Source of the DNA: Methylobacterium organophilum
GTDB taxonomy: Bacteria; Pseudomonadota; Alphaproteobacteria; Rhizobiales; Beijerinckiaceae
NCBI RefSeq assembly: GCF_022179465.1
Contig: NZ_BPQV01000004.1
Coordinates: forward strand, 62,001 to 126,000
DNA length: 64,000 nucleotides
Direction of reading: 5' to 3'
Shown here: positions 6,093-57,368 of the stretch, in pieces
Layout: each line of letters opens with the position of its first letter
Position numbering within the stretch: the first letter of the stretch is position 1
Translations under genes and position numbers: made by a program
Notes under the pieces: model-generated
What the model was told of the DNA's origin: nothing
Seen by the model: only the letters and a program-made list of their open reading frames with translations
The model's database searches: none

Positions 6093-6102
6093 CCGCCCGG
6101 CA

Positions 6103-7308: not shown

Positions 7309-7327
7309 GCCGTTCGGGATCGCCCGC

Positions 7328-16075: not shown

Positions 16076-16104
16076 TTGAGCGGGTCCCACGGCTCTGCTA
16101 GCAG
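16076..16104 (+). promoter_or_regulatory. Candidate sigma-70 promoter of the lactate permease gene
   Basis: TTGAGC and TAGCAG hexamers are separated by 17 bases, placing the transcription start near 16111, inside the inverted repeat at 16109-16140. Judged by eye only. Confidence 0.4.
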
Positions 16105-16108
16105 GATC

Positions 16109-16140
16109 GGATCGGTACGGCGGCAAGATCGTACCGATCC
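16109..16140 (+). promoter_or_regulatory. Perfect inverted repeat before the lactate permease gene
   Basis: GGATCGGTAC and GTACCGATCC form a perfect 10-bp inverted repeat with a 12-base spacer, ending directly before the GGAGGA ribosome binding site of the permease gene at 16158. It could be a repressor operator over the transcription start (lactate genes are often controlled by FadR-type GntR regulators) or an mRNA hairpin next to the ribosome binding site. Confidence 0.6.
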
Positions 16141-16157
16141 GGAGGAGCGCGACGCCC

Positions 16158-17900
<1,743 letters not shown>

Positions 17901-17930
17901 GCCTCCCCGGCGAACACCGAAAAGACGAGA

Positions 17931-17959
17931 CCCCGCACCGGCCTCCGGTGCGGGGTTTT
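17931..17959 (+). terminator. Intrinsic terminator of the lactate permease gene
   Basis: A perfect 11-bp stem (CCCCGCACCGG / CCGGTGCGGGG) with a 3-base loop is followed directly by TTTT. Confidence 0.9.
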
Positions 17960-18033
17960 CTCGTTCCGGGTGGATGGAAAATCCGGCTCGGACGTATCTT
18001 TCCGTAGGATCCCCCGAGCCCAGTTCTCTCCCC

Positions 18034-18576: not shown

Positions 18577-18582
18577 GGGGGA

Positions 18583-20001
18583 CTACTCCGCCGCCGCCCG
18601 CGGCGTCTCCCCGGCGATCCAGGCGGCGAGGTCGGCCCGCGCCCGGTCGGTAAGCGCCTTCTTCTTCAGGGCCGCCTTCTCGGGGCCGCGCAGGCGCTTG
18701 CCGGTTTCGTTGCGCGGCAGCCGCTCCAGGGGCGGGAACAGGCCGAAATTCACGTTCATCGGCTGGAAGGAACGGGGGGCGCCCTCGTCCTCGGCCGCGA
18801 TATGCCCGCCGGTGATGTGGCCGATCAGGGCGCCGAGGGCCGTGGTGGCGGGCAGGGGCGCAAGCGCGCGGCCCTCCGCCTCGGCGAGGGCGAAGCGGCC
18901 GGCCATCAGCCCCACCGCCGCGCTCTCCACATAGCCCTCGCAGCCGGTGATCTGGCCGGCGAAGCGCAGGGACGGCCGCACCTTCAGGCGCAGGGTCGCG
19001 TCGAGCAGCTGGGGGCTGTCGAGATAGGTGTTGCGGTGCAGGCCGCCGAGGCGGGCGAACTCCGCGTTCTCCAGGCCCGGGATCGTGCGGAAGACCCGGA
19101 CCTGCTCCGCATGACGGAGCTTGGTCTGGAAGCCGACCATGTTGAACAGGGTGCCCAGCGCGTTGTCCTGGCGCAGTTGCACGATGGCGTAAGCCTTGAC
19201 GGTCGGGTTGTGCGGGTTTGTGAGCCCGACCGGCTTCATCGGCCCGTGGCGCAGGGTCTCCGGCCCGCGCTCGGCCATCACCTCGATCGGCAGGCAGCCG
19301 TCGAAATAGGGGGTCGAGGCCTCCCAGTCCTTGAAGACGGTCTTCTCGCCCTCGATCAGGGCCCGCACGAAGGCCTCGTACTGCTCCTTGTCCATCGGGC
19401 AGTTGAGGTAATCCGCCCCGGTGCCCCCCGGCCCGGCCTTGTCGTAGCGCGACTGGAACCAGGCCTTGCCCATGTCGATCGACTCGCGGTGCACGATCGG
19501 GGCGATGGCATCGAAGAAGGCCAGGGATTCCGCCCCCGTCAGGGCGCGGATCGCCTCGGCCAGGGCCGGGGAGGTGAGGGGGCCGGTGGCCAGGATGGTC
19601 GGCCCCCAGCTTTCCGGGGGTAGCCCCGCCACCTCCTCGCGCTGGATCGTCACGTTGGGATGGGCTTCCAGCGCCGCGGTCACGGCCCGGGCGAAGCCCT
19701 CCCGGTCGACGGCAAGCGCGCCGCCCGCGGGCACTTGATGGGCATCGGCCGCGCGCAGGATCAGCGAGCCGAGAGTCCGCATCTCCTGGTGCAGCAGGCC
19801 GACGGCGTTGCCGTTGGCGTCGTCCGAGCGGAAGGAATTGGAGCAGACCAGCTCGGCGAGCCCGTCGGTCTGGTGGGCGTCGGTACCGCGGACGGGCCGC
19901 ATCTCGTGGAGCACGACTCGGCGGCCGCCTTCCGCGATCTGCCAGGCGGCTTCGGAGCCGGCGAGACCGCCGCCGACGACGTGGATAGGAGTGTCACTCA
20001 T
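18583..20001 (-). CDS. trmFO: Methylenetetrahydrofolate--tRNA-(uracil-5-)-methyltransferase TrmFO
   Basis: A 472-residue flavoprotein that makes ribothymidine-54 in tRNA using methylenetetrahydrofolate. It starts with the FAD-binding dinucleotide motif [17 protein letters not shown], followed by [32 protein letters not shown], a GidA-related signature specific for TrmFO, and later [14 protein letters not shown] and [12 protein letters not shown]. Length is as usual for the family. It is convergent with the GNAT gene and 31 bp downstream of the pseudoprotease gene on the same strand, possibly co-transcribed. Confidence 0.95.
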
Positions 20002-43417: not shown

Positions 43418-43637
43418 GTCGCGCCGGCCTTCGGCCACGGAACAGGCGCTGGTGAGACGATAAGCGACCGCGGGCTTCGGTCGAGCACATCCCCTTGCCC
43501 CGCTTCGGTCGGCCAGAAGCCTCGAAGAGTGCTTCGCTCGCCGCCCGTCTGATCAAATCCGCATCATTTCCCCGGGCCCCGCGTCGGAAATTTCAGCAGG
43601 CGGAGCGCTTGCCGCGCTGCGCATTCATATGCATTAT

Positions 43638-43666
43638 TTGGACATTGTATCCATATATCGGATAGA
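43638..43666 (+). promoter_or_regulatory. Candidate promoter of the hyu operon
   Basis: TTGGAC and GATAGA with 17 bases between. The palindrome at 43647-43665 fills the spacer and covers the -10 box. The leader to the ATG at 43678 would be very short. Confidence 0.4.
43647..43665 (+). promoter_or_regulatory. Palindromic operator, copy 1 (hyuA promoter)
   Basis: GTATCC-ATATATC-GGATAG, a near-perfect 19-bp palindrome 12 bases before hyuA. It has the same half-sites and spacing as three other copies in the window (50134, 56999, 57019), one of them in front of an iclR gene. Inferred target of that IclR protein. Confidence 0.7.
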
Positions 43667-43677
43667 AAGTCAGCGGC

Positions 43678-45729
43678 ATGGGCCTGCAGATCGCCATCGA
43701 CACCGGGGGCACCTTCACCGACGTCGTCGCCATCGACGACACCACGGGGCGGATCACGGCGGTGAAGACGCCGTCGACGCCCTCCGACCCGAGCATCGGG
43801 CTGATCGAGGGCGTGCGGACGGTGCTCGCCGAAGCCGGCGGCACGGATGCCGACCTGCGCATGCTGCTGCACGGCTCGACCGTGGCGACGAACGCGGTGC
43901 TGGAGCACAAATTCGCCGGCCTCGGCCTGATCGTGACCCGCGGCTTCCGCCACATGATCGAGATCGCCCGGCAATCGGTGCCGGACGGCTACGGCAACTC
44001 GTTCTTCTGGGTGAAGCCGCCGCGTCTGGTGCCGCTCCACCTCGTGCGCGAGGTGCCCGGCCGCCTGACCTTCGAGGGACGCGAGATCGAGCCCCTCGAC
44101 GAGGCGGCGACCCTTCAGGCGGTGCGCGAGCTCGTCGAGGACGGCGTGCGCTGCATCGGCGTCTGCCTGCTCCACGCCTATGCCAACGGCGCGCACGAGC
44201 AGCGCATCGGCGCGCTGATCCGCGCCGAGTTCCCCGACGTCTTCGTCTCGCTCTCCTCGGTGGTGCTGCCCGAATACCGCGAATACGAGCGGGCGATGAC
44301 GACGCTGATCGACGTGCTCGTGAAGCCCTATTGCAAGACCTACCTGCAGAACGCCGCCGACGCGATCCGCGCCAAGTCCGGCGACATCCCGTTCCTGATC
44401 ATGCAGTCGAACGGCGGCGTGGTGAAGCATTCGACCGCCGGCGAGAAGCCGGTGACCATGCTGCTCTCGGGCCCGGCCGCGGGCCTGCTCGGCTCGATCC
44501 ACATGGCGCGGCTCGCCGGCTACAAGGACATCCTCACGGTGGATGTCGGCGGCACCTCCACGGACGTGGCGATCATCGAGGACTACACCCCGATGTACAC
44601 CTCGTCCTCGATGGTCGAGAGCTACCCGGTCAAGACGCCGATGCTCGACATCGTCACGGTCGGCGCGGGCGGCGGCTCCATCGCCTGGACCGACCCCTAC
44701 GGCCAGCTCAAGGTCGGCCCGCGCAGCGCCGGCGCCGATCCCGGCCCGATCTGCTACGGCCGCGGCGGCACCAAGCCCACCGTCACCGACGCGGCGATCA
44801 CGCTGGGCCGCCTGCCCGCCTCGCTGATCGGCGGCGCGATCCGCCTCGACGACGGGGCCGCGCGCAAGGCCTATGCGGAACTCGGCGAGAGCTTCGGCAT
44901 GTCCGCCGAGGAGGTCGCCGCCGGCGCCCTGGAGATCGCCGCCGTCAACCAGGTCTTCGGCATCCGCCAGGTCACCACGACCCGCGGCCGCGATCCCGGC
45001 GCCTATGCCATGGTCGCCTTCGGCGGCGCCGGCGGCCTGTTCGCCACGGAGGTCGCCGACTTCCTCGACATCCGCACGGTGATCTCGCCGCCGAACCCCG
45101 GCAATCTCTGCGCCTTCGGCCTGCACGTCTCCGACGTGCGGCGCGACTACATCCGCACCCTGGTGCGCCAGCAATCGACCGTCGACGGGGCCGAGATCCT
45201 CACCGCCTGGAACGAGCTCGCCGCCACCGGCCTCGCCGATATCGAGGCGGAGGGCATCCCGGCCGAGCGCATCGAGATCCGCCGCATCGCCGACGTGCGC
45301 TACTTCGGCGAGGGCCACGAGGTGCAGGTGGCGATCCCCGCCGGCCTCTCCGACGAGGCGATCCTCGACCACCTCTGGTCGGACTTCCACCGCGTCCACG
45401 ACCAGACCTTCGGCTTCCACTACGAGGGCAAGCAGGACGTCGAGCTCGTCAACCTGCGCATCCAGGCCGTGGGCGAGCAGAGCCGGCCGAGCATCGCCGC
45501 CGACACCGTCGCGCGGGAGCCGGCTGCGCCCTTCGCCACCCGCCGCGCCTATTGGCGCCAGACCGGCTGGATCGACTGCCCGCTCTACCGCCGCACCGAG
45601 CTCGCCGTCGCGCAGACGGTCGCCGGCCCGGCCATCGTCGAGGAATACGGCTCGACGGTCGTGGTGCCGACGAGCTGGCGCGTCCGCGCGGACGCCTACG
45701 GCAACCTGATCCTCGAGAAGAGCCTGTGA
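43678..45729 (+). CDS. hyuA: Hydantoinase/oxoprolinase family protein, subunit A
   Basis: A 683-residue HyuA-type subunit. The N-terminal actin-like ATPase motif IAIDTGGTFTDVVAIDD begins at residue 4, followed by LLHGSTVATNAVLEHKFAGLGLIVTRGF, the second phosphate motif ILTVDVGGTSTDVAIIEDY, and VGAGGGSIAWTD near residue 330. Relatives hydrolyse 5-oxoproline or N-substituted hydantoins, or carboxylate acetone/acetophenone, using ATP. Here the partner hyuB follows after 11 bases. First gene of an operon with a CoxG-like and a creatininase-like gene, behind the palindromic operator. The substrate is unknown. Confidence 0.93.
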   Translation: MGLQIAIDTGGTFTDVVAIDDTTGRITAVKTPSTPSDPSIGLIEGVRTVLAEAGGTDADLRMLLHGSTVATNAVLEHKFAGLGLIVTRGFRHMIEIARQSVPDGYGNSFFWVKPPRLVPLHLVREVPGRLTFEGREIEPLDEAATLQAVRELVEDGVRCIGVCLLHAYANGAHEQRIGALIRAEFPDVFVSLSSVVLPEYREYERAMTTLIDVLVKPYCKTYLQNAADAIRAKSGDIPFLIMQSNGGVVKHSTAGEKPVTMLLSGPAAGLLGSIHMARLAGYKDILTVDVGGTSTDVAIIEDYTPMYTSSSMVESYPVKTPMLDIVTVGAGGGSIAWTDPYGQLKVGPRSAGADPGPICYGRGGTKPTVTDAAITLGRLPASLIGGAIRLDDGAARKAYAELGESFGMSAEEVAAGALEIAAVNQVFGIRQVTTTRGRDPGAYAMVAFGGAGGLFATEVADFLDIRTVISPPNPGNLCAFGLHVSDVRRDYIRTLVRQQSTVDGAEILTAWNELAATGLADIEAEGIPAERIEIRRIADVRYFGEGHEVQVAIPAGLSDEAILDHLWSDFHRVHDQTFGFHYEGKQDVELVNLRIQAVGEQSRPSIAADTVAREPAAPFATRRAYWRQTGWIDCPLYRRTELAVAQTVAGPAIVEEYGSTVVVPTSWRVRADAYGNLILEKSL

Positions 45730-45740
45730 GGGAGGCGACC

Positions 45741-47633
45741 ATGACGCAAGAGACCCGCACCACCCTCGGCCCGATCGAGCTCGAGGTCATCCACGGCACC
45801 ATCCGCGCGGCCGAACTCGAGATCGAGGCGGCGGTGGAGCGCACCGCCCGCTCGCCGATGATCCGCGACCAGCACGACTACCGGGTCGCGCTGTTCGACG
45901 CCAAGGGCCGCAAGCTCACCGGCCGCTCCTACTCGGCCATCGTCGAGCCGGTCTTCGAATATTTCGGCGCCGACGACATCCATCCCGGGGACGTGTTCTT
46001 CTGGAACGATCCCTACAATTCCTGCGGCGGCATCGGCCACGTGCCGGATCTCTGCACCACGGTGCCGATCTTCCTCGGCGAGCGGCTGATCGGCTTCAGC
46101 CAGGTCTTCGGCCACCACGACGACATCGGCGGCGCCGTGCCGGGCAGCCTGCCCGTCCACGCAACGGATTCGTGGATGGAGGGCGTGATGATCCCCCCGA
46201 TCAAGCTCTACGAGAAGGGCAAGCGCAACGAGGCGGCCTTCCGCATCATCGTGCGCAATTCCCGCCTGTCCGAGCACCTCGCCGGCGATCTCGACGCGGA
46301 GATCGGCGCGGCCAAGCTCGGCTCCCGCCGGGTCGTGGCCCTGGCCGAGCGCTACGGCGCCGACACGCTGGAGGCCGCCTTCGACCAGATCCTGAAGAAC
46401 ACCGCCGAGATCTTCCGCCGGGAGATCCTGCCGAAGATCGCCGACGGCGAGTACACCTTCGAGGACTTCATCGAGAACGACGGCGTCGAGAAGGACAAGC
46501 TCCACGCCCTGCGCGTGACGATGATCAAGACCCCGGACAAGATCGTCCTCGACTTCACCGGCACCGACCCGGAGGCCAAGGGCCCGATCAACTGGGCGCT
46601 CGACGAGGCGGAGGGCCGCTACTTCCGCAAGTGGCTCGCCCCGACGCTGCGCTCGCTCGCGAGCTCCCCGGAGCGGGCCGCCGAGATCGACTCGAACGAG
46701 GGCGTGCTCGACGTCATCGACGTGGTCTTCCCGAAGAAGGGCACGCTGATCACCCCGACCTTCGGCAAGCCCACCGGCATGCGCTTCTTCCTGATGCTGC
46801 GCACGCTGGGCTCGTTCGCCGCCTGCCTGTCCAAGGCGACGGGGGGCAAGATGCCGGCCGACCACGAGACCATCCGCATCTGGGGCGTCACCGGCGGCAA
46901 GACGCAGGAGGACTTCTACCTGTTCCGCGAGGTGTTGGGAGGCGGCAGCCCCGGGCGCCCCTGGGCGGACGGCTCGGATGTCGTGCACATCGTGCCGAAC
47001 TCCAAGAACCTGCCGGCGGAGTTCTCCGAGACCCGCTACCCGATCCTGGTGGAGGAGCTCGGCCTCAAGCAGGGCTCCGGCGGCCCCGGCTATCACCGCG
47101 GCGGCTTCGGTTACGACAAGCGCATCCGCGCCCTGCAGGAATGCCGCCTGATCTCCAACGCCGACCGCTCCCTGCTCGGCTGCTACGGCGTCAACGGCGG
47201 CAAGGCCGGCGAGAACTACCAGGTCTCGGTGATCGATGGCGAGAACCGCGAGACGGTGCATCCCGGCATGAGCGACACGGTCACGGTCGCGCCGGGCTCG
47301 GTGATCCGCATCGTCACGACCGGCGGCGGCGGCTGGGGCGATCCCCTGGCGCGGCCGGTGGAGCGGGTGGTGGCCGACGTGCAATGCGGCCTCGTCTCGG
47401 AGGCCTCGGCCCGGCACGATTACGGCGTGGTGCTGACGCGCGCCGGCCGCACATGGACAGCCGACCTCGCCGGCACGGAGGCCCTGCGGGCTCGCCTCGC
47501 CAAGGAGCGCGGCACGCCGGCCATGTTCGACCGCGGCCCCTATTTCGCCGCCCTCAAGGCGGCCGGCCGGATCACCCGGCCGGAGGGGCTGCCCGATCCG
47601 GACGAGGGCTGGCACGCCCGGCCGGTGCGGTAG
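45741..47633 (+). CDS. hyuB: Hydantoinase/oxoprolinase family protein, subunit B
   Basis: A 630-residue HyuB-type subunit. Family blocks are IELEVIHGTIRAAELEIEAA, SPMIRDQHDYRVALFDAKGR, HPGDVFFWNDPYNSCGGIGH, QVFGHHDDIGGAVPGS, FTGTDPEAKGPINW, and the Gly-rich ending VTTGGGGWGDPLARPVERVV. Length fits a separate B subunit rather than the fused 5-oxoprolinase. The ATG at 45741 has GGGAGG a few bases upstream. It forms a heteromer with HyuA. Confidence 0.93.
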   Translation: MTQETRTTLGPIELEVIHGTIRAAELEIEAAVERTARSPMIRDQHDYRVALFDAKGRKLTGRSYSAIVEPVFEYFGADDIHPGDVFFWNDPYNSCGGIGHVPDLCTTVPIFLGERLIGFSQVFGHHDDIGGAVPGSLPVHATDSWMEGVMIPPIKLYEKGKRNEAAFRIIVRNSRLSEHLAGDLDAEIGAAKLGSRRVVALAERYGADTLEAAFDQILKNTAEIFRREILPKIADGEYTFEDFIENDGVEKDKLHALRVTMIKTPDKIVLDFTGTDPEAKGPINWALDEAEGRYFRKWLAPTLRSLASSPERAAEIDSNEGVLDVIDVVFPKKGTLITPTFGKPTGMRFFLMLRTLGSFAACLSKATGGKMPADHETIRIWGVTGGKTQEDFYLFREVLGGGSPGRPWADGSDVVHIVPNSKNLPAEFSETRYPILVEELGLKQGSGGPGYHRGGFGYDKRIRALQECRLISNADRSLLGCYGVNGGKAGENYQVSVIDGENRETVHPGMSDTVTVAPGSVIRIVTTGGGGWGDPLARPVERVVADVQCGLVSEASARHDYGVVLTRAGRTWTADLAGTEALRARLAKERGTPAMFDRGPYFAALKAAGRITRPEGLPDPDEGWHARPVR

Positions 47634-47708
47634 GAACCCAGGCGCCGCGGCCGGCCCGGACGCGGCGCCCACCGACTTCTCCCTCCGACGTCTCTGGGGC
47701 GCGAGACC

Positions 47709-48311
47709 ATGAAGATCACCCAATCCTTCGAGGTGCCGCGGCCGCTGCCGGCCGTCTGGGACCTGTTCCAAGACATCCCGGCGGTCGCGCTCTGCATGCC
47801 GGGCGCCGAGCTGACCGAGGACAAGGGCAACGGCGTCTATGCCGGCAAGGTCGGCATCAAGCTCGGGCCGTTCGGGGCCTCCTTCGACGGGGAGGCCACG
47901 GTGACGACGGATCCCGCCACCCATAGCGGGCATGCCGAGGGCCGGGGCACCGACAAGCGCGGCGGCAGCCGCTCCAAGCTCGCCCTCGACTATCGCCTGA
48001 CCGATCTCGGCGGCAGCGCCACCCGCGTCGACATCGACGCGGACGTGCAGCTCGCCGGCCCCATCGCCCAGTTCGGCCGCACCGGCCTCGTCAACGAGAC
48101 CGCCTCCGTGCTGATCGGGCAATTCGTGAAGAACGTCGAATCTCGGCTCGCGGCCGCCCCGGCCGTGAGTGACGGTGCCGCCGCGTCATCCCCCCAGCCA
48201 CCTGCGGCGGCACCGTCTACGCAAACCACGCAGATCAGCGTGCTGGGCCTGCTCGTCCGGCTGATCGCGTCCCTGTTCAGGAAACGGCAGAAGGAATCGA
48301 CCCATGGCTGA
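47709..48311 (+). CDS. CoxG/SRPBCC family protein
   Basis: A 200-residue CoxG-type protein: MKITQSFEVPRPLPAVWDLF, then LCMPGAELTEDKGNGVYAGKV, GPFGASFDGEATV and GRGTDKRGGSRSKLALDY, the START/SRPBCC ligand-binding fold. A Pro/Ala linker leads to a C-terminal amphipathic or membrane-inserting helix (ISVLGLLVRLIASLFRKRQ). In CO dehydrogenase systems CoxG anchors the molybdenum hydroxylase to the membrane. It is in the hyu operon, while the molybdenum hydroxylase subunits are 5 kb away, which links the two operons functionally. The stop overlaps the creatininase-like gene by 8 bases. Confidence 0.9.
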   Translation: MKITQSFEVPRPLPAVWDLFQDIPAVALCMPGAELTEDKGNGVYAGKVGIKLGPFGASFDGEATVTTDPATHSGHAEGRGTDKRGGSRSKLALDYRLTDLGGSATRVDIDADVQLAGPIAQFGRTGLVNETASVLIGQFVKNVESRLAAAPAVSDGAAASSPQPPAAAPSTQTTQISVLGLLVRLIASLFRKRQKESTHG

Positions 48312-49119
48312 TCCCGCCTCCACCGCCCCCGCCGCCGGCGGGGAACGGCGCATGTCCTTCATGACGCAGATGGAGATCGCGGAGGCGATCGCGCAGAAGC
48401 GCGCCGTGATCCTGCCCACCGGCGCCACCGAGGCGCACGGCCCCCACATGCCCACCGACACGGACACGCATCAGGTCGAGCACATCGCCTGGCTGCTGGC
48501 CCAGCGGATCGACGCCCTGGTGGCGCCCCCCGTCGCCTACGGCATCTCCAAGACCTTCGAGTTCTTCCCCGGCACGATCTCGCTCTCGATTCCGACCTAC
48601 CAAGCCATGCTGTTCGAGATCGGCGCGGCCCTGGTCCGGCAGGGCTTCGAGCACCTGATCCTCCTCAACGGCAACCGCCCGAACGGCACCGCCAACGACG
48701 CCGTCGCCCGCCACCTCGTCGACGAGCTCGACGCGGCCCACAGCTTCAAGGTCTCCGCCGTGAGCTACTGGGAGCCGGCGGCGGAGAGGATCCACGCCCT
48801 GCGCCAATCGGTGCCGGGCGGCATGGGGCATGGCTGCGAGTTCGAGACCGGCTTCCAGCTCGCCACGCGGCCCGAACTCGTGAAGATGGATCGGCTGGAG
48901 GGCGCCCATTACGGCCCGGTCGGCTGGGACCTCGTGGCGCCGACGGAGCCGGTGCGCACCTATATGCGCCGGCCGCGCCCCGCCGCCGGCCATGCCGCGA
49001 TCTTCGGCGACCCGTCCTGCGCCACGGCGGAGGCCGGCCAAGTCTTCATCGACACCGTGGTCCAGGTGCTGGAAGAGACCTTCCGCACCCTGCGGGGCTC
49101 CTACGAGGAGCGGCGCTGA
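48304..49119 (+). CDS. Creatininase-family protein with altered metal site
   Basis: A 271-residue member of the creatininase/FAPy-deformylase/MftE superfamily: VILPTGATEAHGPHMPTDTDTHQVEHIAW with the Glu, His and Asp metal ligands, then GISKTFEFFPGTISLS and EFETGFQLATRPELV. The usual NGHGGN (or NGHYEN) metal motif reads NGNRPN, so its His is Asn and the creatininase second ligand Glu is Pro. Family members open cyclic amides or formamides. Its place in the hyu operon suggests a ring-opening or amide step on a related compound, if still active. It overlaps the CoxG-like gene by 8 bases and ends before a large hairpin. Confidence 0.88.
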   Translation: MADPASTAPAAGGERRMSFMTQMEIAEAIAQKRAVILPTGATEAHGPHMPTDTDTHQVEHIAWLLAQRIDALVAPPVAYGISKTFEFFPGTISLSIPTYQAMLFEIGAALVRQGFEHLILLNGNRPNGTANDAVARHLVDELDAAHSFKVSAVSYWEPAAERIHALRQSVPGGMGHGCEFETGFQLATRPELVKMDRLEGAHYGPVGWDLVAPTEPVRTYMRRPRPAAGHAAIFGDPSCATAEAGQVFIDTVVQVLEETFRTLRGSYEERR

Positions 49120-49142
49120 CCGCGCCGCGCCTCCGCAACCGA

Positions 49143-49194
49143 CCCGAAACCCGGCCCGGGACGTGCCCACGTCCCGGGCCGGCTGCGTTTCGGG
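49143..49194. terminator. Large bidirectional hairpin between convergent genes
   Basis: CCGGCCCGGGACGTG (49151-49165) pairs perfectly with 49168-49182, and CCCGAAAC (49143-49150) pairs with GTTTCGGG (49187-49194) across a 4-base bulge, giving about 23 bp of stem. No T-tract. It most likely ends both the hyu operon and iclR transcripts. Confidence 0.65.
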
Positions 49195-49235
49195 TTGATC
49201 GGAACGGTCGGGCGCTTCCCGAGTCGCCCTTGGCC

Positions 49236-50093
49236 TCAGCGGCCGTGGCGCCAGCCGAGGTCGAGGGAGATCGAGTGGGCGGCATGCCCGATCTGCTCGC
49301 GCAGGGTCTCCCGGCGCGCGTCGCTCTTCAGGAGATTCTTGCGGAAGACGAAGCAGAGCGCGGCCACGGTCTGTCCCGTCGCGTCGCGGATCGGCGCCGC
49401 CATCGAGGCGGCGAAGAGCTGAACGTCGCCGACGGTGAGGGCGAAATCCGAGGCCCGCACCTCCTCCAGGATCGCCCGCACTGCCACGGGATCCGTCACC
49501 GTCTCCGGCGTCAGGCGCTCAAGGGGGCGGGCGAGATAGGCGTCGATGAAGGCGGGCGGCTCATTGGCCAGCAGCACATGCCCCTTCGAGGCGCAGTGCA
49601 GCGGGAAGTGATAGCCGTAATGCGCCTTGGTGATGTCCTCATCGACATGCTGGTGCGAGTAGATCACCACCGATTGCCAGCCGATCCGCTCGACCACCTG
49701 CAGGGCGATTCCGTCCAGCTCGGAGAGCTTGGCGAGGTAGGGCGTCGCCGCCGTCAGCACCCGGTGATTCGACAGGTAGGCCGAGCCGATATGCCAGAGC
49801 CGCGGTCCGATCTGGTAGCGGCTGGTTTCGGGATCGCGGCGCAGGAACTGCGCCTTCTCGAGCTGGACGATCGTGCGGTGGACGGTGGCCCAGGGCAGAT
49901 CGAGGGCCCGGGTGACGTCGACGACACGGGCCGGCGCCTGGGCGAGCAGCTCCAGCACGGCGAAGGAGCGGTCCATGCCGCGCAGGGAGCCGGGATCGAT
50001 GGCCGAGGGGAGGGCGCCCTTCGGGGCCGGCGCCTCGGACGCAGCCTGATCCGCGGCGGCCTTGCGCCCCCGCTGCTTGCTCTGTGCCGTCAT
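49236..50093 (-). CDS. IclR-family transcriptional regulator
   Basis: A 285-residue IclR protein: N-terminal winged helix-turn-helix (SFAVLELLAQAPARVVDVTR then ALDLPWATVHRTIVQLEKAQ) and a C-terminal effector domain with YQIGPRLWHIGSAY, HYGYHFPLHCASKGHVLLAN and a late SMAAPIRDATGQTVAALCF. The ATG at 50093 (AAGGA six bases upstream) is chosen. A longer frame starting at a TTG at 50144 would begin inside the palindrome at 50134-50152, which is more likely its operator. It lies between the hyu operon and the uptake/hydroxylase genes and probably controls both and itself. Confidence 0.92.
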   Translation of the reverse strand: MTAQSKQRGRKAAADQAASEAPAPKGALPSAIDPGSLRGMDRSFAVLELLAQAPARVVDVTRALDLPWATVHRTIVQLEKAQFLRRDPETSRYQIGPRLWHIGSAYLSNHRVLTAATPYLAKLSELDGIALQVVERIGWQSVVIYSHQHVDEDITKAHYGYHFPLHCASKGHVLLANEPPAFIDAYLARPLERLTPETVTDPVAVRAILEEVRASDFALTVGDVQLFAASMAAPIRDATGQTVAALCFVFRKNLLKSDARRETLREQIGHAAHSISLDLGWRHGR

Positions 50094-50133
50094 GGGATCC
50101 TTCACGCCGCGTGCGATCGCGTCCGCGAGATCT

Positions 50134-50152
50134 GTATCCGACAAACGGATAC
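50134..50152 (-). promoter_or_regulatory. Palindromic operator, copy 2 (iclR promoter)
   Basis: Minus strand: GTATCC-GTTTGTC-GGATAC, perfect 7-bp arms (GTATCCG / CGGATAC). It lies about 41-59 bases before the iclR ATG and overlaps a possible -10 GATACA (TTCACG-N17-GATACA), the same geometry as at hyuA. Indicates autoregulation. Confidence 0.7.
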
Positions 50153-50277
50153 GGCCGTGAAGGTCGCGCCGGCGGATTTCCTGCGACGGATCCGTTCCGG
50201 TGCCCGGATCCGCGCCATGCGTTCGGCCCTGGCTGGGAGCCAGGGCCGGTGGGGTGTGCGGTGAAGTCCGCGCCGTC

Positions 50278-51246
50278 TCAGAAGATGTGCACGGAGACGC
50301 CGGCGAGGAAGGTCTTTTCTTCGGCGCCCGGGACGTTGTTCTGGTTGGTGCCGAACTTGTTCATCCAGTACTGGAAGCCGACGAAGGCATCGAGCTTGCC
50401 GGGCTGGCCCCAGACGAGCTTGCCCACGTCGAGCACGAGGTTGGTGCGCGACAGGAACTCGAGCTCGGTCTTGGCCCCGAAGCCGTCCTTGCCCTTGGGC
50501 AGGTTGACGTTGTTGAAGCCGGCGAGGCTGAGCGGCAGACCGGTGAAGGCCAGCGGGAAGTTGTAGACCAGCTCGAAATGCGGCACCGCGTCGAACTCGA
50601 CGCTGCGGAAGGGCTCGGCCACGATGCCGTTGCGATTCCACTCCTTCTGGACATACACGCCGAGGTTCATGAAACCGGCGGGCACGTCGAAGGAGAAGAC
50701 CGCGCCGGCGAGCAGCTTACGGACTTCCGGACCGAACTGGGTGTTCTTGGTGTTGGCGTCGAAGCCGTAGCCGAGCGAGATGTTCTTGAGAACGCCGGGA
50801 ACGCTGAAGGCCTTGGTGTTGAAGACCTCGTTGCCGCCGAGCGTGCCGCGGTAGAGGCCGTAGGCTTCCGTCGCGCCGTAATCGTAGAGGGCGAAACGCG
50901 GAGCGCCGGTGCCGGCGGGATCCTGCGAGCCGGACTGCAGGATGTCGAGGGAGAAGAAGTTGGTGCCGTAGGCCCAGGCATCGGCGTGCGAGATGTTGAG
51001 CACGTTCTTCGGGATCGAGCGGCCCGCGAGGGAATTGCCGGCCCGGCCGCCGGTGACGCCCGGCTCGCGCGCATCCGCCAGGTAGAAGTAGCTCACCTGG
51101 GTGTCGGAGAAGAGGAAGAAGGACGGGGCGGCGGCCGGCGCGGGCGGAGCCTCCTTCTTCGGCAGGTCCGCGGCCATGGCAGCACACGCGCAGGTAGCAG
51201 CCGCGACGAAAGATACAAACTTTGATACGAAAAGATGAGCTGACAT
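50278..51246 (-). CDS. Tsx-like outer-membrane channel protein
   Basis: A 322-residue exported protein with a signal peptide ending near residue 25 (CACAAMAADLP) and a beta-barrel-like remainder of alternating strands ending in Phe (VSVHIF). Patterns such as NISHADAWAYGTNFFSLDIL, ISLGYGFDAN and LDAFVGFQYWMNKFGTNQ resemble the nucleoside-specific channel Tsx/OmpK family. This is a pattern-based call. The next gene encodes a BMP-family binding protein whose known ligands are nucleosides, which fits a joint uptake route for a purine-like compound. Confidence 0.65.
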   Translation of the reverse strand: MSAHLFVSKFVSFVAAATCACAAMAADLPKKEAPPAPAAAPSFFLFSDTQVSYFYLADAREPGVTGGRAGNSLAGRSIPKNVLNISHADAWAYGTNFFSLDILQSGSQDPAGTGAPRFALYDYGATEAYGLYRGTLGGNEVFNTKAFSVPGVLKNISLGYGFDANTKNTQFGPEVRKLLAGAVFSFDVPAGFMNLGVYVQKEWNRNGIVAEPFRSVEFDAVPHFELVYNFPLAFTGLPLSLAGFNNVNLPKGKDGFGAKTELEFLSRTNLVLDVGKLVWGQPGKLDAFVGFQYWMNKFGTNQNNVPGAEEKTFLAGVSVHIF

Positions 51247-51566
51247 GTTGGGCAGTCCCCTCGGCTAATGCCAGAGAACTATTTTCCGACTCCAAAGATC
51301 AGTCAACGATGAGTTCCCGAACATCTCGAAGAGCAACATCGATTAAAGCGATCGTTGCACAAATATCACTGAAAGATTGTGCACAATCTATCGAGATATA
51401 ATGGTTGCAACCGGCCGTTATTTCCGGTCGCCGGTGCTCTGGTCTGCAATTTGGCACCCTAGCCTCCGAGGCCCCCGGGGACTAATGCCGCTCCGGCATC
51501 AATCCTGTCTTTCGGGGTTCGGCGCAGATGGACGCTGGTGCATGTCCCGTGCCGGCGCGTCGTCCT
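51247..51566. other. Intergenic, AT-rich upstream region of the Tsx-like gene
   Basis: 51260-51420 is AT-rich compared with its surroundings and should hold the promoter of the Tsx-like gene. It contains imperfect repeats around TTGTGCACAATCTATCGAG. No copy of the GTATCC-N7-GGATAC palindrome is seen here. Confidence 0.4.
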
Positions 51567-51662
51567 TCAGAAGCCGTAGCCGACGGTGAAGGACTGGGCG
51601 AGCCGATACTCGACACCGGCGCAGATCGCGAAGCCGTCGAACGACTTCGGCACTCCCGTCAG
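51567..51662 (-). pseudogene. Possible C-terminal remnant of an outer-membrane beta-barrel gene
   Basis: The minus-strand frame ending at 51567 finishes SFDGFAICAGVEYRLAQSFT then VGYGF and a stop. This is an amphipathic terminal beta-strand pattern ending in the C-terminal Phe typical of barrel proteins. No matching upstream barrel sequence continues in frame, so it could be a leftover of a porin gene, or chance. Confidence 0.25.
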
Positions 51663-51774
51663 GCAGAGAGCGGGCGACGCCCCAGACGAACCGCGCATCG
51701 AAAACACCGAAATCCGTCCAAGAAACAAAGGGCAGGGAGCGCCGCCGGCAGGGCCGGCGGCGCGGGCGGAGGGA

Positions 51775-52860
51775 TCAGCGCTGGGTGACGACGCCGGGGA
51801 GGAACCAGTCCATCTTCCAGAGCTCGGCATCGCTGAGAACCTTGCCCTCAGGCACCCGCTCGACACCGTCCCGATCCTTGAGGGGGCCGGCGAAGATCTG
51901 CTTGCCGTCGATGAGCGCCTGACGCTCCGCCATGATCCTGTCGACCGCCGCCTTGGGCACGGCCGGGCCGCAGCAGGCGATGTCCGGACCGCCCTCCTTG
52001 ATGGACAGGAAGGCGCCGAAGGGGCGCGGCTCCCAGGTGCCGGCTTTGATCTTCTCGATCGTGGGCACGAAGTAGCGCTCCCAGTACCAGACCGAGGAGC
52101 ACTGGGTCGCCGTCGGCGCGAATTCGCGCATGTCGCGGTGATGGCCGGTGGCGAAGATGCCCTTCTCCTGGGCCACGATCTGCGGGGTCGGCGTGTCGAC
52201 ATGCTGGCCGATCGCATCCATGCCCTGGCCGATCAGGGCCGCGGCGGCGGCCCGCTCCTTCACCGGATCCTTCCAGGCGCCGGTATAGACCGCGGTCGTG
52301 ACGGCGTTGGGGTTCGTCAGCCGGGCACCGAGTTCGTAGGCATTGATCGTCCAGTTGACGATGCCGAACGGGTTGGCGGCGACGAAGCCGATCTTGCCGC
52401 TCTTGGAGGCCGCGCCGGCGGCCATGCCGCAGAGGTAATGCGTCTCGTAGGTGCGGCCGTAGAAGGATTCGAGGTTGGGGCCGGTGGTCGTGCCCGAACC
52501 GTTCACGAAGGCGACCTTCGGATACTTCTCCGACAGCTCCTTGAAGGTGTCGGAGAAGGCATAGGCGGTGCCGATGATGATGTTGTAGCCGCGCTTGATG
52601 AACAGCTCGGCGGCCGGCCGGATCGAGGTCGCGGTCTCCTGGATGTTCTCCACCACCGGGATCGTGATGCCGAGGGCCTTCTCCGTGCGCTGCCGGGCCT
52701 CGTCCATGGCCTGGGACCAGCCGCCGTCGTTCTTGGGCCCGAACAGGATCATGGCGACCTTGGGCTCGCCCTCGAGCTTGAACGGGGCGGCGGAGGCGGC
52801 CGGGGCTTGGCCGGCAACAGCCAGGCCGAGGGCCGCGCAGGCGGCAACGCGTCGGATCAT
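51775..52860 (-). CDS. BMP-family (PnrA/TmpC-like) ABC transporter substrate-binding protein
   Basis: A 361-residue periplasmic binding protein. The signal peptide (about 1-25, ending AAS-AAP) has no lipobox. The mature part shows the BMP pattern: PKVAMILFGPKNDGGWSQAM, then GYNIIIGTAYAFSDTFKELS, YPKVAFVNGSGTT, YLCGMAAGAASKSGKIGFVA and WKDPVKERAAAAALIGQGMD. Known relatives bind nucleosides or related purines for NupPQ-type ABC importers. No permease or ATPase gene lies next to it, so the membrane part must be elsewhere. It stands between the Tsx-like gene and the molybdenum hydroxylase operon. Confidence 0.9.
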   Translation of the reverse strand: MIRRVAACAALGLAVAGQAPAASAAPFKLEGEPKVAMILFGPKNDGGWSQAMDEARQRTEKALGITIPVVENIQETATSIRPAAELFIKRGYNIIIGTAYAFSDTFKELSEKYPKVAFVNGSGTTTGPNLESFYGRTYETHYLCGMAAGAASKSGKIGFVAANPFGIVNWTINAYELGARLTNPNAVTTAVYTGAWKDPVKERAAAAALIGQGMDAIGQHVDTPTPQIVAQEKGIFATGHHRDMREFAPTATQCSSVWYWERYFVPTIEKIKAGTWEPRPFGAFLSIKEGGPDIACCGPAVPKAAVDRIMAERQALIDGKQIFAGPLKDRDGVERVPEGKVLSDAELWKMDWFLPGVVTQR

Positions 52861-53064
52861 GTGATGTGTCCCCTTGTCCTCGCCGGCCGTGGGTCGGACC
52901 CTGTTCTTCGATGGGCGGACGCGGCCGATTGTTCGGCAGCGTGCCGGAATCCCAGGCCAGCCTATCGCCCCCCCGCACGGGGACCCAATGCCGTCTGGGC
53001 GGCGGGCGATGCCCGCCCGGCATCGTGCCGCGGGCCGGCTCCGCTCCGGATCCGAGGGCCGCGC

Positions 53065-55452
53065 TCACGCGCCGGCGAGGGCGGCGTGGATCATGCTCGG
53101 CGTGATCGGCACGTGCCGGAACGGCCCGGCCCCGAGGGGCCGCAGCGCGTCCTCGATGGCGGAGGCGACCACCGAACCGACCGGGATGCAGCCCGCCTCG
53201 CCCACGCCCTTCACGCCGAGCGGGTTGAGGGGGGAGGGCGTCTCGAGATGCAGGATCTCCACCGGCGGCACCTCCGTGGCGTAGGGCACCAGGAAGTCGA
53301 CGAAGTTGGCGTTGACCGGGTTACCCTCCGCATCGAACTCGATGCGCTCGTAGAGGGCACCGCCGAAGCCCTGGGCGATGCCGCCCATGACCTGGCCCTC
53401 GACGATGGTCGGGTTGATCATGGTGCCGCAATCGTGGACGCAGACGTAGCGCAGCACCTTCACCGCGCAGGTCTCGGGATCGACCTCGAAGAGGCCGCCA
53501 TGGACGCCGTAGGCCCAGGTGGCGCAGGGCGGGCTGTAATAGTCCGTCGCCTCCAGGCCCGGATGCTCGCCCGGGCGGAGGGCCGGGCCGTCGTGTCGGC
53601 TCGCCGGGGCGAACTGGGTCGCCGCCTTGGCTGCCTCGTTGAAGGCGTAGCGCAGGGGATTGGTCGCCGTGGCGATCGCCGCCAGCGACACGCTGCGGTT
53701 GGTGCCCCGCGCCCAGGCGGCGCCGTCGCGCAGGTCGATGTCCTCGCGGTCGACCTCCAGCATGTTGGCGGCGGCCTCGATGGTCTTGGCCCGCACGATC
53801 GCCGCCGATTGGTGGATGGCGTTGCCGGAGACCACCGCCGCCCGGCTCGCGAAAGTGGCCACCCCCCAGTCATAGGCCTTGGTGTCGCCCTCCACGACGA
53901 TCACGTCCTCGACGGCGACGCCGAGCTGGTCGGCCACGATCTGGGCGAAGACGGTGTCGTGCCCCTGCCCCTGCGAGGTCAGACCGGTATTGACGGAGAC
54001 CTTGCCGGTGATCGGCTGGATGCGGACATGGCCGCCCTCGTAAGGGCCGAGGCCGGTGCCCTCGACATAGAAGGCGAGGCCCAGGCCGAGATAGCGACCC
54101 TGGGCCCGCGCCCGCTCCTGCTCCGCCGGAAAGGCTTTGGCGTCGAGCCGCTCCTCCAGCATGGCGAGCGCCCGGTGATACTGGCCGCTGTCGAGGCTGA
54201 CCGGCAGGCCGTCGGCGAAGAGCAGGCCCTCGCGCAGCACCGGGAATTCGTGGTCGGCGACGAGGTTGCGGCGGCGCACCTCGAAGCGGTCGAGGCCGAG
54301 TTCGTCGGCGAGCTGGTCGATCGCCCGCTCGATGGCGAAGTTCGCCTGGGGCCGGCCGCAGCCGCGATAGGGCGTGACCGGGACCGTCGGCGTGTAGACG
54401 CAGCGGAAGGCCACGTCGATGTTCGGGATCCGGTAGGGGCCAGCGATCGAGGTCGAGGCGACCTGGGGGATCGCGATGCCGTAGGGGATGAAGGCCCCGG
54501 TATCGTGCAGGAAGACGTCGCGCAGGCCGAGGATCGTGCCGTCCTTGCGGGCGAACAATTCGATCTCGTGGATCTGCGTGCGCTCCTGCGAGGAGCCGAT
54601 GAAGTTCTCGCGCCGGTCCTCGATATACTTGACCGGGCGGCCGAGCTGGCGCGCGGCCATCGGCACCAGCAGCTCGTCGGGATAGAACTGGTAGACCTTC
54701 TGGCCGAAGCCGCCGCCGACATCGGGGGCGATGACCCGGACCTTGTCCTCGTCGATCCCGAGGATCGAGGCCAGCGCCCCGCGCACGGAGATCGGCGCCT
54801 GGGTGCCGTCCCAGACCGTCAGCTCGCCGGTGACCGGGTCATGGACCGCGGCCACGGCGCGGCATTCCATCGGCGCGGCGGTGGAGCGGTCGACCTGCAC
54901 GCGGATGCGGGTGACGTGCTCCGCCTGCGCGAAAGCCGTGGCCGGGTCCCCGCAGATCTGGCGAAAATCGGCGGCGACATTGTTGGGGTGCCCGGCATGG
55001 ACCAGCGGCGCCCCGTCCGCCACCGCCCGCTCCAGATCGAGCTCGACGGGCAGCGGGTCGTACTCGACCCAGACCAGGGTGGCGGCGTCCTCCGCCGTGT
55101 AGCGGTCGACGGCCACCACCATCGCCACCGGCTGGCCGACATGGAACACGTCCTCCCGGGCGAGCGGCCGCTGCGTGCGCGGATCCATCATCGAGGGATG
55201 CGGGATGAGCTGCGGCAGCTCCAGATCGAGGGCGCCGATGTCGTCGCAGGTATAGACCGCGCAGACGCCCGGCATGGCCTTCGCCTCCGCCGTGTCGACC
55301 GACAGGATCTTCGCCCGGGCGAAGGGGCTGCGCACGAAAGCGACGTGCAGCGGATGGGCGAGCGGAATGTCGTCGACGAAGGAGCCTTCGCCGCGCAGGA
55401 GCTTGGGATCGATGTTGCGCTTGATCCGGGAACCGAAGGTGCGGGTCGACAT
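53065..55452 (-). CDS. Molybdenum hydroxylase large (molybdopterin) subunit
   Basis: A 795-residue xanthine-dehydrogenase/CoxL-family subunit. The start RIKRNIDPKLLRGEGSFVDD is typical; later come DVGGGFGQKVYQFYPDELLV and PVTPYRGCGRPQANFAIERA. This is the form II loop, since the CO-dehydrogenase loop with selenylated Cys (AYRCSFR) is absent. GLTSQGQGHDTVFAQI and LGVKGVGEAGCIPVGSVV carry the catalytic Glu. It hydroxylates a heteroaromatic or purine/aldehyde carbon with water. The true start is ATG 55452, two bases after the Fe-S subunit gene. Confidence 0.93.
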   Translation of the reverse strand: MSTRTFGSRIKRNIDPKLLRGEGSFVDDIPLAHPLHVAFVRSPFARAKILSVDTAEAKAMPGVCAVYTCDDIGALDLELPQLIPHPSMMDPRTQRPLAREDVFHVGQPVAMVVAVDRYTAEDAATLVWVEYDPLPVELDLERAVADGAPLVHAGHPNNVAADFRQICGDPATAFAQAEHVTRIRVQVDRSTAAPMECRAVAAVHDPVTGELTVWDGTQAPISVRGALASILGIDEDKVRVIAPDVGGGFGQKVYQFYPDELLVPMAARQLGRPVKYIEDRRENFIGSSQERTQIHEIELFARKDGTILGLRDVFLHDTGAFIPYGIAIPQVASTSIAGPYRIPNIDVAFRCVYTPTVPVTPYRGCGRPQANFAIERAIDQLADELGLDRFEVRRRNLVADHEFPVLREGLLFADGLPVSLDSGQYHRALAMLEERLDAKAFPAEQERARAQGRYLGLGLAFYVEGTGLGPYEGGHVRIQPITGKVSVNTGLTSQGQGHDTVFAQIVADQLGVAVEDVIVVEGDTKAYDWGVATFASRAAVVSGNAIHQSAAIVRAKTIEAAANMLEVDREDIDLRDGAAWARGTNRSVSLAAIATATNPLRYAFNEAAKAATQFAPASRHDGPALRPGEHPGLEATDYYSPPCATWAYGVHGGLFEVDPETCAVKVLRYVCVHDCGTMINPTIVEGQVMGGIAQGFGGALYERIEFDAEGNPVNANFVDFLVPYATEVPPVEILHLETPSPLNPLGVKGVGEAGCIPVGSVVASAIEDALRPLGAGPFRHVPITPSMIHAALAGA

Positions 55453-55454
55453 GA

Positions 55455-55997
55455 TCAGGCTTCCCCTCGGCGGACCGCGAGGCGCTCGGCCGCCTGGCGA
55501 TAGGCGGCGACGATGGTCTGGTAGCCGGTGCAGCGGCAGAGATTGCCGGAGAGCACGTCCCGGATGCCCTCCTCGGAGAGGTCGACCGGCTGCCCGGATT
55601 CGAAGTGGCTCAGGATGTTCATGATGAAGCCCGGTGTGCAGTAGCCGCATTGCAGGGCGTGGCAGTCGCGGAAGGCCTCCTGCAGCGGGTGCAGGGTGCC
55701 GTCCTCGGCGGCGACCGATTCGATGGTGCGCAGCTCCGTCCCGTTGGCCTGCACCGCCAGGGTGAGGCAGGAGCGGGCGGACTTGCCGTCGATCATCACC
55801 GTGCAGGCGCCGCAGACGCCGTGCTCGCAGCCGACATGGGTGCCGGTGAGGCCGAGCTCGTGCCGCAGGAAATCCGAGAGCAGCATGCGCAGGCTGACCT
55901 CGCGCTCGACCGCCTCGCCGTTGACGGTGAGGGCGACGCGGATCGTGGGATCGTCCGAGGTGACGGGAAACTGGCGCCGGGCCTTTGCGCGGGACAT
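55455..55997 (-). CDS. Molybdenum hydroxylase [2Fe-2S] subunit
   Basis: A 180-residue small subunit with both clusters visible: plant-ferredoxin type CEHGVCGACTVMIDGKSARSC near residues 58-78 and the four-helix C..C...C.C pattern CGYCTPGFIM...GNLCRCTGYQTIV near 117-160. It carries electrons from molybdenum to FAD. The N-terminus has a short extension (SRAKARRQFPVTSDD) before the core. Middle gene of FAD-FeS-Mo order. Confidence 0.96.
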   Translation of the reverse strand: MSRAKARRQFPVTSDDPTIRVALTVNGEAVEREVSLRMLLSDFLRHELGLTGTHVGCEHGVCGACTVMIDGKSARSCLTLAVQANGTELRTIESVAAEDGTLHPLQEAFRDCHALQCGYCTPGFIMNILSHFESGQPVDLSEEGIRDVLSGNLCRCTGYQTIVAAYRQAAERLAVRRGEA

Positions 55998-56009
55998 GGG
56001 AATCGTGCC

Positions 56010-56867
56010 TCAGGAAGCGCGGGAGAGGGCGCCCGCCACGGCCCGCCGGACGAGGCCGGCGAGGAGGTGGCGGCGGTATCCCGTTGTGGCGTGGAGATCG
56101 TCGGGGGCGGTGACCGCCGCCTTGGCCGCCTCGGCCGCGGCGCGGATCGCACCCTCGGAGAGGTCGCTGTCCGACAGGAGCGCTTCCGCCGCCTCCAGGC
56201 GAACGGGGCGGGCGGCGATGCCGCAGGCGGCGAGGGAGACCGCGTGGCGGACCGTGCCGCGCCGGATCACCGCGCCGACCGCGGCGACCGCGTAGTCGCC
56301 CCGGCGGCGGGCGAATTCCTCGAAGGCCCAGCCGGCCCCCTCGGGCAGGACCGGGAAGCGCGCCTCCGTGACGATCTCGTCCTGGCGGCGGGACGTGGTC
56401 ATGTGGAACGCGAAGAAGTCCCGCGCCGCGATCTCGCGCCGTCCTTCCGGCCCCTGCGCGACCACGCTGCCATCGGTGAGCAGCAGCAGCATCGGCATCT
56501 CGGCGGCGGCATCGGCGTGGCAGAGGCTGCCCACCACGGTGCCGCGGTTGCGGATCGGGATATGGGCGACATGGGCCATCACCGCGCGGATGAGCGGGTT
56601 CGCCCGATGCGCCTCGGCGCTGAGCTCCAGCTCCCGGTGGCGCACCATGGCGCGGACCGTGATCCGGCCCTCGCCCACCGTGATCCCCCGCAGGCCCTCG
56701 ACATGCTGGATGTCGACGAGGCGGCCGGGGGCGGCGAGCCGCAGGTTCATCGCCGGGACGAGGCTCTGGCCGCCGGCCAGCACCATCGCGCCGGGATCCC
56801 CGGCCAGCAGGGCGATCGCCTCGTCGAGCGTCCGCGGCGCGTCATATGCGAACAGAGACGGTTTCAT
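56010..56867 (-). CDS. Molybdenum hydroxylase FAD subunit
   Basis: A 285-residue medium (CoxM/XdhA-like) subunit: MKPSLFAYDAPRTLDEAIAL, FAD motif MVLAGGQSLVPAMNLRLAAP, the second FAD motif RNRGTVVGSLCHADAAAEMP, and the CO_deh_flav_C domain FEEFARRRGDYAVAAVGAVI. The ATG at 56867 is the family start. First gene of the three-gene operon, 130-170 bases downstream of two palindromic operators and a TTGACA promoter. Confidence 0.94.
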   Translation of the reverse strand: MKPSLFAYDAPRTLDEAIALLAGDPGAMVLAGGQSLVPAMNLRLAAPGRLVDIQHVEGLRGITVGEGRITVRAMVRHRELELSAEAHRANPLIRAVMAHVAHIPIRNRGTVVGSLCHADAAAEMPMLLLLTDGSVVAQGPEGRREIAARDFFAFHMTTSRRQDEIVTEARFPVLPEGAGWAFEEFARRRGDYAVAAVGAVIRRGTVRHAVSLAACGIAARPVRLEAAEALLSDSDLSEGAIRAAAEAAKAAVTAPDDLHATTGYRRHLLAGLVRRAVAGALSRAS

Positions 56868-56998
56868 GGCCTGTTCCGGTCTTCTCGCGGCATGAGCGGA
56901 CAGTCTTCGCAAGCTTTCGCATGGAAGCCCGATGCCCGGAACCGCATCGCCCACAAACGAGCAGGATGCCCAAAACGGCGGCATCGCTGCTCATTTGT

Positions 56999-57017
56999 TT
57001 ATCCGTATAGTGGATAT
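56999..57017 (-). promoter_or_regulatory. Palindromic operator, copy 4 (hydroxylase operon, downstream site)
   Basis: Plus strand reads TTATCC-GTATAGT-GGATAT: the same half-site and 7-base spacing as the other three copies. Its centre is 20 bp (two helical turns) from copy 3 at 57019-57037, so two repressor dimers could bind side by side. Confidence 0.65.
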
Positions 57018-57018
57018 G

Positions 57019-57037
57019 ATATCCTCGATTAGGATAC
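57019..57037 (-). promoter_or_regulatory. Palindromic operator, copy 3 (hydroxylase operon, -10 site)
   Basis: Plus strand reads ATATCC-TCGATTA-GGATAC. It covers the -10 box of the promoter at 57031-57058. Confidence 0.7.
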
Positions 57038-57058
57038 GTTACCACTTTGCCCTGTCAA
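57031..57058 (-). promoter_or_regulatory. Promoter of the molybdenum hydroxylase operon
   Basis: Minus strand: perfect -35 TTGACA (57058-57053), 16 bases, then TATCCT (57036-57031). The -10 lies inside operator copy 3, so bound regulator would block polymerase. Confidence 0.6.
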
Positions 57059-57368
57059 TCTCTCCAGTACTTCGAGGAAGGGATTTTTCTCTGCGGGCAC
57101 CCAGCGCGGCGCGAGGCCCCGAGGCTGGAGCGGCCCGCGGCATTCCCGGCCGAGGCGGCCGATCGGAACGGCCATCGCTCGCGCCGAACCGGTCTGCCCT
57201 TCGGCGAAGGGAGCTCTAGCAAGAGCGGGACCGACTCGCTTTTCCCCGGCTTCCCGCTGGCTCACGCTCCGCCCGGCCTCGCGCGACGAAGCGGCAGCCG
57301 AGGGACCGGACCGGGCGGCATGCGGCCCGCTCCCGGCGAGGCGCGCGGCATCCACGACTGAAATTTCC
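57059..57368. other. Intergenic region, about 310 bp
   Basis: Short overlapping frames exist on both strands, but none has a ribosome binding site together with a recognisable or hydrophobic product. I see no supported gene. Confidence 0.4.

Follow-up and report, generated by a model that had tools for sequence, protein, structure and literature searches.

A predicted four-box IclR operator at the hydantoinase and molybdenum hydroxylase promoters of a Methylobacterium organophilum gene cluster

The palindrome TATCC-N7-GGATA is probably (at roughly 85%) the operator of the IclR protein encoded in a cluster of hydantoinase and molybdenum hydroxylase genes, within the 64-kb stretch of DNA analysed here (hereafter the window). 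The protein would repress hyuA and the molybdenum hydroxylase (cox) operon through four-box arrays, autoregulate at iclR, and be released by an inducer. An operator and a compact regulon would then be assigned to an uncharacterised IclR orthologue, tying together five gene families. Such an assignment would make the substrate testable through the compound that releases the repressor. The arrays also provide a natural case for how an IclR protein may fill boxes of alternating direction where promoter and operator appear to share bases.

In the window, hyuA, hyuB, coxG, and the creatininase gene are read rightward and iclR leftward. The BMP gene and a three-subunit molybdenum hydroxylase are also read leftward, from 57 kb (Table 1).

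Table 1. Genes, predicted operators, and predicted promoter elements of the cluster (window positions).
Feature	Positions	Strand	Remarks
hyuA predicted -35, TTGCCG	43609..43614	+	Consensus scoring, whole promoter 8/12
hyuA four-box operator (predicted)	43628..43664	+	TATGC-N7-GGACA-N3-TATCC-N7-GGATA, 2/20 mismatches; conserved at hyuA of relatives
hyuA predicted -10, CATTAT	43632..43637	+	Consensus scoring; within weak upstream copy
hyuA, hydantoinase/oxoprolinase A subunit	43678..45729	+	Pfam PF01968, PF05378, PF19278
hyuB, hydantoinase/oxoprolinase B subunit	45741..47633	+	Pfam PF02538; start codon from translation
CoxG/SRPBCC family protein	47709..48311	+	Pfam PF06240
Creatininase-family amidohydrolase	48304..49119	+	Pfam PF02633; nearest PDB creatininase 1q3k
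iclR, proposed repressor, 285 aa	49236..50093	-	Pfam PF01614, PF09339; recognition helix PWATVHRT; start codon taken as ATG at 50093
iclR single-palindrome operator (predicted)	50134..50152	.	GTATCC-N7-GGATAC; 40 bp to start codon
BMP/PnrA-type substrate-binding protein, AtzT-like, probable last cox operon gene	51775..52860	-	Pfam PF02608; PDB 6pi5 AtzT E=8.5e-56
Molybdenum hydroxylase large subunit, ORF, start codon uncertain	53065..55650	-	Nearest PDB quinoline 2-oxidoreductase 1t3q
Molybdenum hydroxylase [2Fe-2S] subunit	55455..55997	-	
Molybdenum hydroxylase FAD subunit, first cox operon gene	56010..56867	-	ATG start used in upstream tests
cox four-box operator (predicted)	57000..57036	-	TATCC-N7-GGATA-N3-TATCC-N7-GGATA, perfect
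cox -35, TTGACA	57053..57058	-	16 bp from -10; consensus scoring

A scan of the window found TATCC-N7-GGATA exactly at 43648, 50135, 57000, and 57020. Allowing one mismatch, 0.38 sites were expected against 4 found, a number that no shuffle out of 100 attained. The original prediction had described a 19-bp element, GTATCC-N7-GGATAC, at four places with identical 6+7+6 geometry. The 5-7-5 core was exact at all four, whereas the 19-bp form was exact only at iclR (50134), with 1 mismatch at 43647, 2 at 56999, and 1 at 57019. As a conserved unit the 19-bp palindrome was rejected: at up to 3 mismatches the window contained 19 against 14.07 expected, and 10 of 100 shuffles reached 19. It was replaced by the 5-7-5 core and a 20-bp tandem, both of which hold up against controls. 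No further copies had been noticed in the window, which was correct for the exact core but overlooked a degenerate copy, TATGC-N7-GGACA, at 43628-43644.

Searching the whole own genome (5,064,441 bases, 113 contigs), a check proposed with the original prediction, returned only these four exact copies, all in the cluster. A further 27 sites had one mismatch; the pattern read backward gave 20. A crude composition test placed 19 of the 27 in coding-like frames, and the sequence 20 bp away had at least 5 mismatches in every case. For these two reasons no regulon wider than the cluster is claimed. In the genus, 64 of 112 genomes contain at least one exact palindrome; no genome but the own one reaches four, the other 111 having 0-3 each. 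A single exact palindrome is no marker there.

At hyuA and cox the unit is a 37-bp array of four boxes, made of two palindromes 20 bp apart and larger than an isolated 19-bp palindrome. The boxes alternate in direction and their TCC or GGA cores recur every 10 bp (TCC-N7-GGA-N7-TCC-N7-GGA). At hyuA the degenerate, weak copy is followed at exactly 20 bp by the strong copy at 43648-43664. At cox the two copies start at 57000 and 57020, exactly the 20 bp that had been predicted. The array scan found no close partner at 20 bp for the iclR palindrome in the window.

Twelve loci of relatives, 232,073 bases in all, showed conservation of both the spacer and the tandem distance. Spacer 7 gave 15 exact and 28 near sites (up to one mismatch), while 14 of the other 15 spacers (0 to 15) gave 0 exact sites and one gave 1, with near sites numbering at most 7. 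When near sites were paired with a second site of up to 3 mismatches, a distance of 20 bp was found in 16 counts and no other distance up to 60 bp more than once; in this tally a pair of two near sites is counted twice, and some sites are doubled because loci L067 and L075 overlap by 9.5 kb. The window and these loci together gave 37 hits to the 37-bp array at up to 6 mismatches; 20 first-order Markov controls averaged 2.25. Eleven of the 12 loci had at least one such hit, the exception being L069.

Consensus scoring predicted the promoters TTGCCG-17-CATTAT at hyuA and TTGACA-16-TATCCT at cox. It had been proposed that the right half-site of the hyuA palindrome holds the -10; the best-scoring -10, CATTAT, falls instead in the weak upstream copy. 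The TTGACA promoter postulated for cox was recovered, with its -10 (TATCCT, 57036-57031 on the minus strand) not in the third of the four copies, as had been thought, but in the fourth (57019), where it is the array's first box in the direction of transcription. For iclR the proposed placement held: the -10 of the best pick, TTCACG-17-GATACA, shares bases with the half-site that transcription reaches second, though the pick is weak (7/12).

Across 18 hyuA and coxM arrays the best-scoring -10 started at array positions 1-5 in 17, the exception being coxM of genome G913, at position 11. On these predicted promoters the operator overlaps the promoter of the regulated genes, as in autoregulated repressors of the IclR family. 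In a control of 500 runs, where the upstream 45 bp were shuffled and the array was kept, a -10 at positions 1-5 was found in a mean of 3.1 and a maximum of 8 of 18. Promoter scores, each the best of many positions, averaged 9.3/12 for the real and 6.7/12 for the shuffled sequences. TTGACA was exact at 7 of 8 coxM promoters. The eight iclR promoters scored were poor and uneven (7-8/12), and their -10 elements had no common placement. At hyuA and cox, box 1 seems to serve also as the -10 element.

IclR orthologues were found at 4 loci in the genome_contigs set, in 3/112 genomes of the genus, 5/397 of the order, and 4/385 of the class, and in the families of G460 (2/103), G579 (8/21), and G290 (1/8), all tallies including the own or centre genome. 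IclR identity in the relatives was 42-95%. Their loci had largely the same genes, arranged in different orders. Upstream regions of 250 bp were tested at 49 gene starts from 18 clusters, the window included, and were scored positive if they contained a palindrome with up to one mismatch or an array with up to four. The gene coxM was tested only where it heads an operon, and loci L017 and L018 were excluded because, judged by length, their contigs are those of L071 and L072. Forty of the 49 starts were positive: hyuA 10/11, coxM 8/8, iclR 14/18, and 8/12 other operon heads, the last picked after the maps had been seen. The iclR of G965, outside the 49 and tested separately, has an exact palindrome, giving 41/50 in total and 15/19 for iclR. 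An operator upstream of its own gene, as expected of an autoregulated repressor, is therefore predicted in 15 of 19 clusters, including the window (50134-50152). Permuting the half-sites (29 permutations) yielded a mean of 0.55 and a maximum of 5 positives out of 49. Related species had been suggested as a comparison for the probable regulon of this IclR, and the outcome agrees with it: in relatives with an orthologous IclR, the sites recur at the promoters of hyuA, cox, and iclR.

Nine of the 50 starts had no site: iclR of G012, G913, G462, and G655; hyuA of G655; the creatininase gene of both Bauldia; and bmp of G693 and G971. The 20-kb locus of G655 (L069) contains no array at up to 6 mismatches, although its gene set is similar and its IclR (51% identity) has an unchanged recognition helix. 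Of the 112 genomes of the genus, the three that encode an IclR orthologue are also those that encode a HyuA orthologue; among 347 genomes of the order, a search for HyuA was positive in 3, and all of these have the IclR too. The 37-bp array at up to 3 mismatches was present in 6/112 genus genomes and the pattern read backward in none. In the three genomes with IclR and HyuA, arrays at hyuA and coxM account for 6 of 7 hits; the seventh, in G012, lies elsewhere. The remaining three genomes (G060, G072, and G105) are without a close IclR orthologue and have one array-like hit each, with 3 mismatches.

The hit in G072 (G072:C1:722052-722088, L094) is well formed, in a genome without an IclR match at E<=1e-60, and is perhaps the operator of a related regulator. 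In G913 (L107) further exact palindromes at 1549-1565 and 3345-3361, about 2.9 and 1.1 kb upstream of hyuA, suggest further regulon members in that genome. Within L066 (G462), at 4584-8564 and 15114-18929, hyuA, hyuB, bmp, and coxL were each matched in several pieces, with hyuA and hyuB in different frames; these split matches may reflect either assembly errors or a decaying cluster.

The IclR protein of the window exceeded the cut-offs for the N-terminal helix-turn-helix domain (PF09339, 36 bits vs. 22) and the C-terminal effector domain (PF01614, 87.7 bits vs. 24). The nearest NCBIfam model was the PcaR/PcaU/PobR subfamily TIGR02431, for which the score fell below the cut-off (114.1 vs. 284.75 bits). 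The WAT-x-HRT of the recognition helix is kept in all 19 aligned IclR proteins, G655 included. The nearest named relatives are from M. zatmanii (94%) and M. dankookense (76%).

The geometry of these sites follows a published rule for the IclR family. The main text of Suvorova and Gelfand 2021 (PMC8222616) describes a group 1 with a TYC-N7-GRA core and a group 2 with half-sites in inverse order. Of 181 groups, 94 have tandem sites at a spacing of 18-22 nt; three-box sites are given there for 32 groups. All four of our copies have TCC-N7-GGA and so contain the group 1 core TYC-N7(8)-GRA; palindrome centres are 20 nt apart at hyuA, at cox, and in relatives, within the 18-22 nt range. The full group 1 consensus GKTYCRYW3-4RYGRAMC does not fit in a by-eye comparison, the outer TA and the inner N7 departing from it. 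An array may be read as overlapping group 1, group 2, and group 1 sites. Like the group 1 tandem operators described there, the present sites combine the core with a tandem of about 20 nt and regulation, here predicted, of the own gene and adjacent operons; they differ from the group 1 subgroups listed in that text by the outer bases TA, the four alternating boxes, and a first box that apparently lies over the -10. GenR of Corynebacterium glutamicum (ATTCC-N7(5)-GGAAT; Table 1 of PMC8222616) shares the 5-7-5 geometry and the CC...GG core, but has other outer letters and controls 3-hydroxybenzoate/gentisate genes. Alternating box direction is also described there for the three-box sites of PcaU, PobR, and HmgR, which have three boxes of different sequence against four here. 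TtgV, a regulator of RND efflux pumps for which the same text cites tetramer binding, has been solved as a tetramer-operator complex (PDB 2xro); it is an IclR-family protein on DNA and a sequence relative of the present IclR (E=3e-5), whereas a tetramer at the present arrays is our proposal.

The words GGATA, TATCC, hydantoin, and creatinin are absent from the main text of PMC8222616, and the operator sequence with this gene set was not found in the literature searched; an earlier prediction may be contained in the supplement of PMC8222616 (1340 regulators) or in RegPrecise. Where GTATCC occurred in the literature searched, it stood in primers. The original claim of an undescribed operator thus stands for the sequence within the literature searched and falls for the geometry. 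The design is known; an uncharacterised IclR orthologue with its operator and a regulon of three promoters is what appears to be new.

We propose that a dimer of dimers of IclR would sit on the four boxes along one face of the DNA, from about -12 (-16 at hyuA) to about +25, and block RNA polymerase. Because a protein so placed would cover the likely transcription start, we infer a repressor. At iclR one dimer on the single palindrome would give autoregulation, and an inducer, probably an N-heterocyclic substrate or breakdown product, would release the protein. PcaU and PobR act mainly as activators. The present IclR might be an activator or dual regulator on its sites, the inducer turning the bound protein into an activator. 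The IclR family does include activators, PcaU and PobR bind three alternating boxes (main text of PMC8222616), and the PcaR/PcaU/PobR model is the nearest to our protein, though far below its cut-off. We regard activation as unlikely nonetheless: the 17 of 18 hyuA and coxM arrays that start at the predicted -10 span the likely start, where a block is expected rather than polymerase recruitment, and the cox promoters have TTGACA. It is doubtful, but less so, that the functional unit is a three-box site, with an inner everted pair GGATA-N3-TATCC (the group 2 arrangement) and one outer box, in place of two palindromes. Such sites are published for 32 groups (PMC8222616, main text), and the everted pair was the second strongest arrangement in the 12 loci (22 sites with up to one mismatch), a strength explained by the fact that any tandem array must produce such pairs. 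Over 23 arrays, listed by hand and some without orientation by a known promoter, matches per position were 22-23 in box 3 and 19-23 in box 4, and in only 12 and 13 arrays at the last two positions of box 1. The overlap with the predicted -10 would explain this drift of box 1. Box 2 of the supposed inner pair is itself uneven (16-22 of 23), and the iclR site of the window and of several relatives is a single inverted palindrome without an everted partner.

The repressor reading could also be wrong about the protein. If a different regulator encoded elsewhere bound the palindromes, the IclR gene would be a bystander; the G655 cluster, with its IclR and no sites, speaks for this. This we consider very improbable, since site, IclR, and cluster recur together across divergent genomes, iclR itself has a site in 15/19 clusters, and the sequence fits the IclR-family rule given in the main text of PMC8222616. 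That the palindromes arose by chance, in promoter patches rich in AT within a GC-rich genome, is scarcely credible: an exact copy or two is common in the genus (at least one in 64/112 genomes), but spacing, tandem distance, and position are all conserved, and the permuted and Markov controls fail to reproduce them.

The regulon probably serves N-heterocycle catabolism. The nearest solved relatives of its products, AtzT, quinoline 2-oxidoreductase, N-methylhydantoinase, and creatininase, point to an N-heterocycle that would be imported, hydroxylated, and opened by hydrolysis. A BMP-type binding protein, a molybdenum hydroxylase, the ATP-dependent lactam hydrolase HyuAB, a creatininase-type amidohydrolase, and CoxG would fit uptake, hydroxylation beside the ring nitrogen, and hydrolytic ring opening. 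HyuA resembles the ATP-dependent lactam hydrolases N-methylhydantoinase, its nearest solved relative (PDB 7hk5, E=7e-146), and caprolactamase CapAB, with 506 bits against the NCBIfam CapA model, below the equivalog cut-off of 1000 bits. AtzT is described in PMC6834077 as a guanine/2-hydroxyatrazine-binding protein. In our own reading of the alignment, the BMP protein keeps the stacking Trp194 and has His and Asp for the guanine-pocket residues Asn218 and Asn220, and as a pointer to the substrate the comparison is only suggestive. The fullest version of the proposal is evenly balanced between holding and failing. It is that scattered Alphaproteobacteria share an undescribed IclR regulon in which an AtzT-like transporter would import an N-heterocycle, the molybdenum hydroxylase would convert it to a lactam, and HyuAB with the creatininase-type amidohydrolase would open the ring, while a tetrameric repressor bound to a four-box operator, with box 1 also serving as the -10, would keep the whole route shut.

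The region 43500-57300 had only partial matches in the plasmid collection (28 records, none covering 80%), IclR had zero tblastn matches there at E<=1e-40, and no relative was found in the viral contigs searched. Following the BMP gene, a short remnant at 51570-51722 resembles an ABC permease (53% over 51 aa), and a full ATPase and two permeases stand at the matching place in M. zatmanii (L017) and M. dankookense (L114). The transporter core seems to have been lost from the cluster of the window. An ORF at 50278-51246, between iclR and the binding-protein gene, is without a Pfam match; two Methylobacterium plasmids encode a similar hypothetical protein, at about 74% DNA identity. A relative of this ORF (82%) adjoins the transporter genes in M. 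dankookense (L114).
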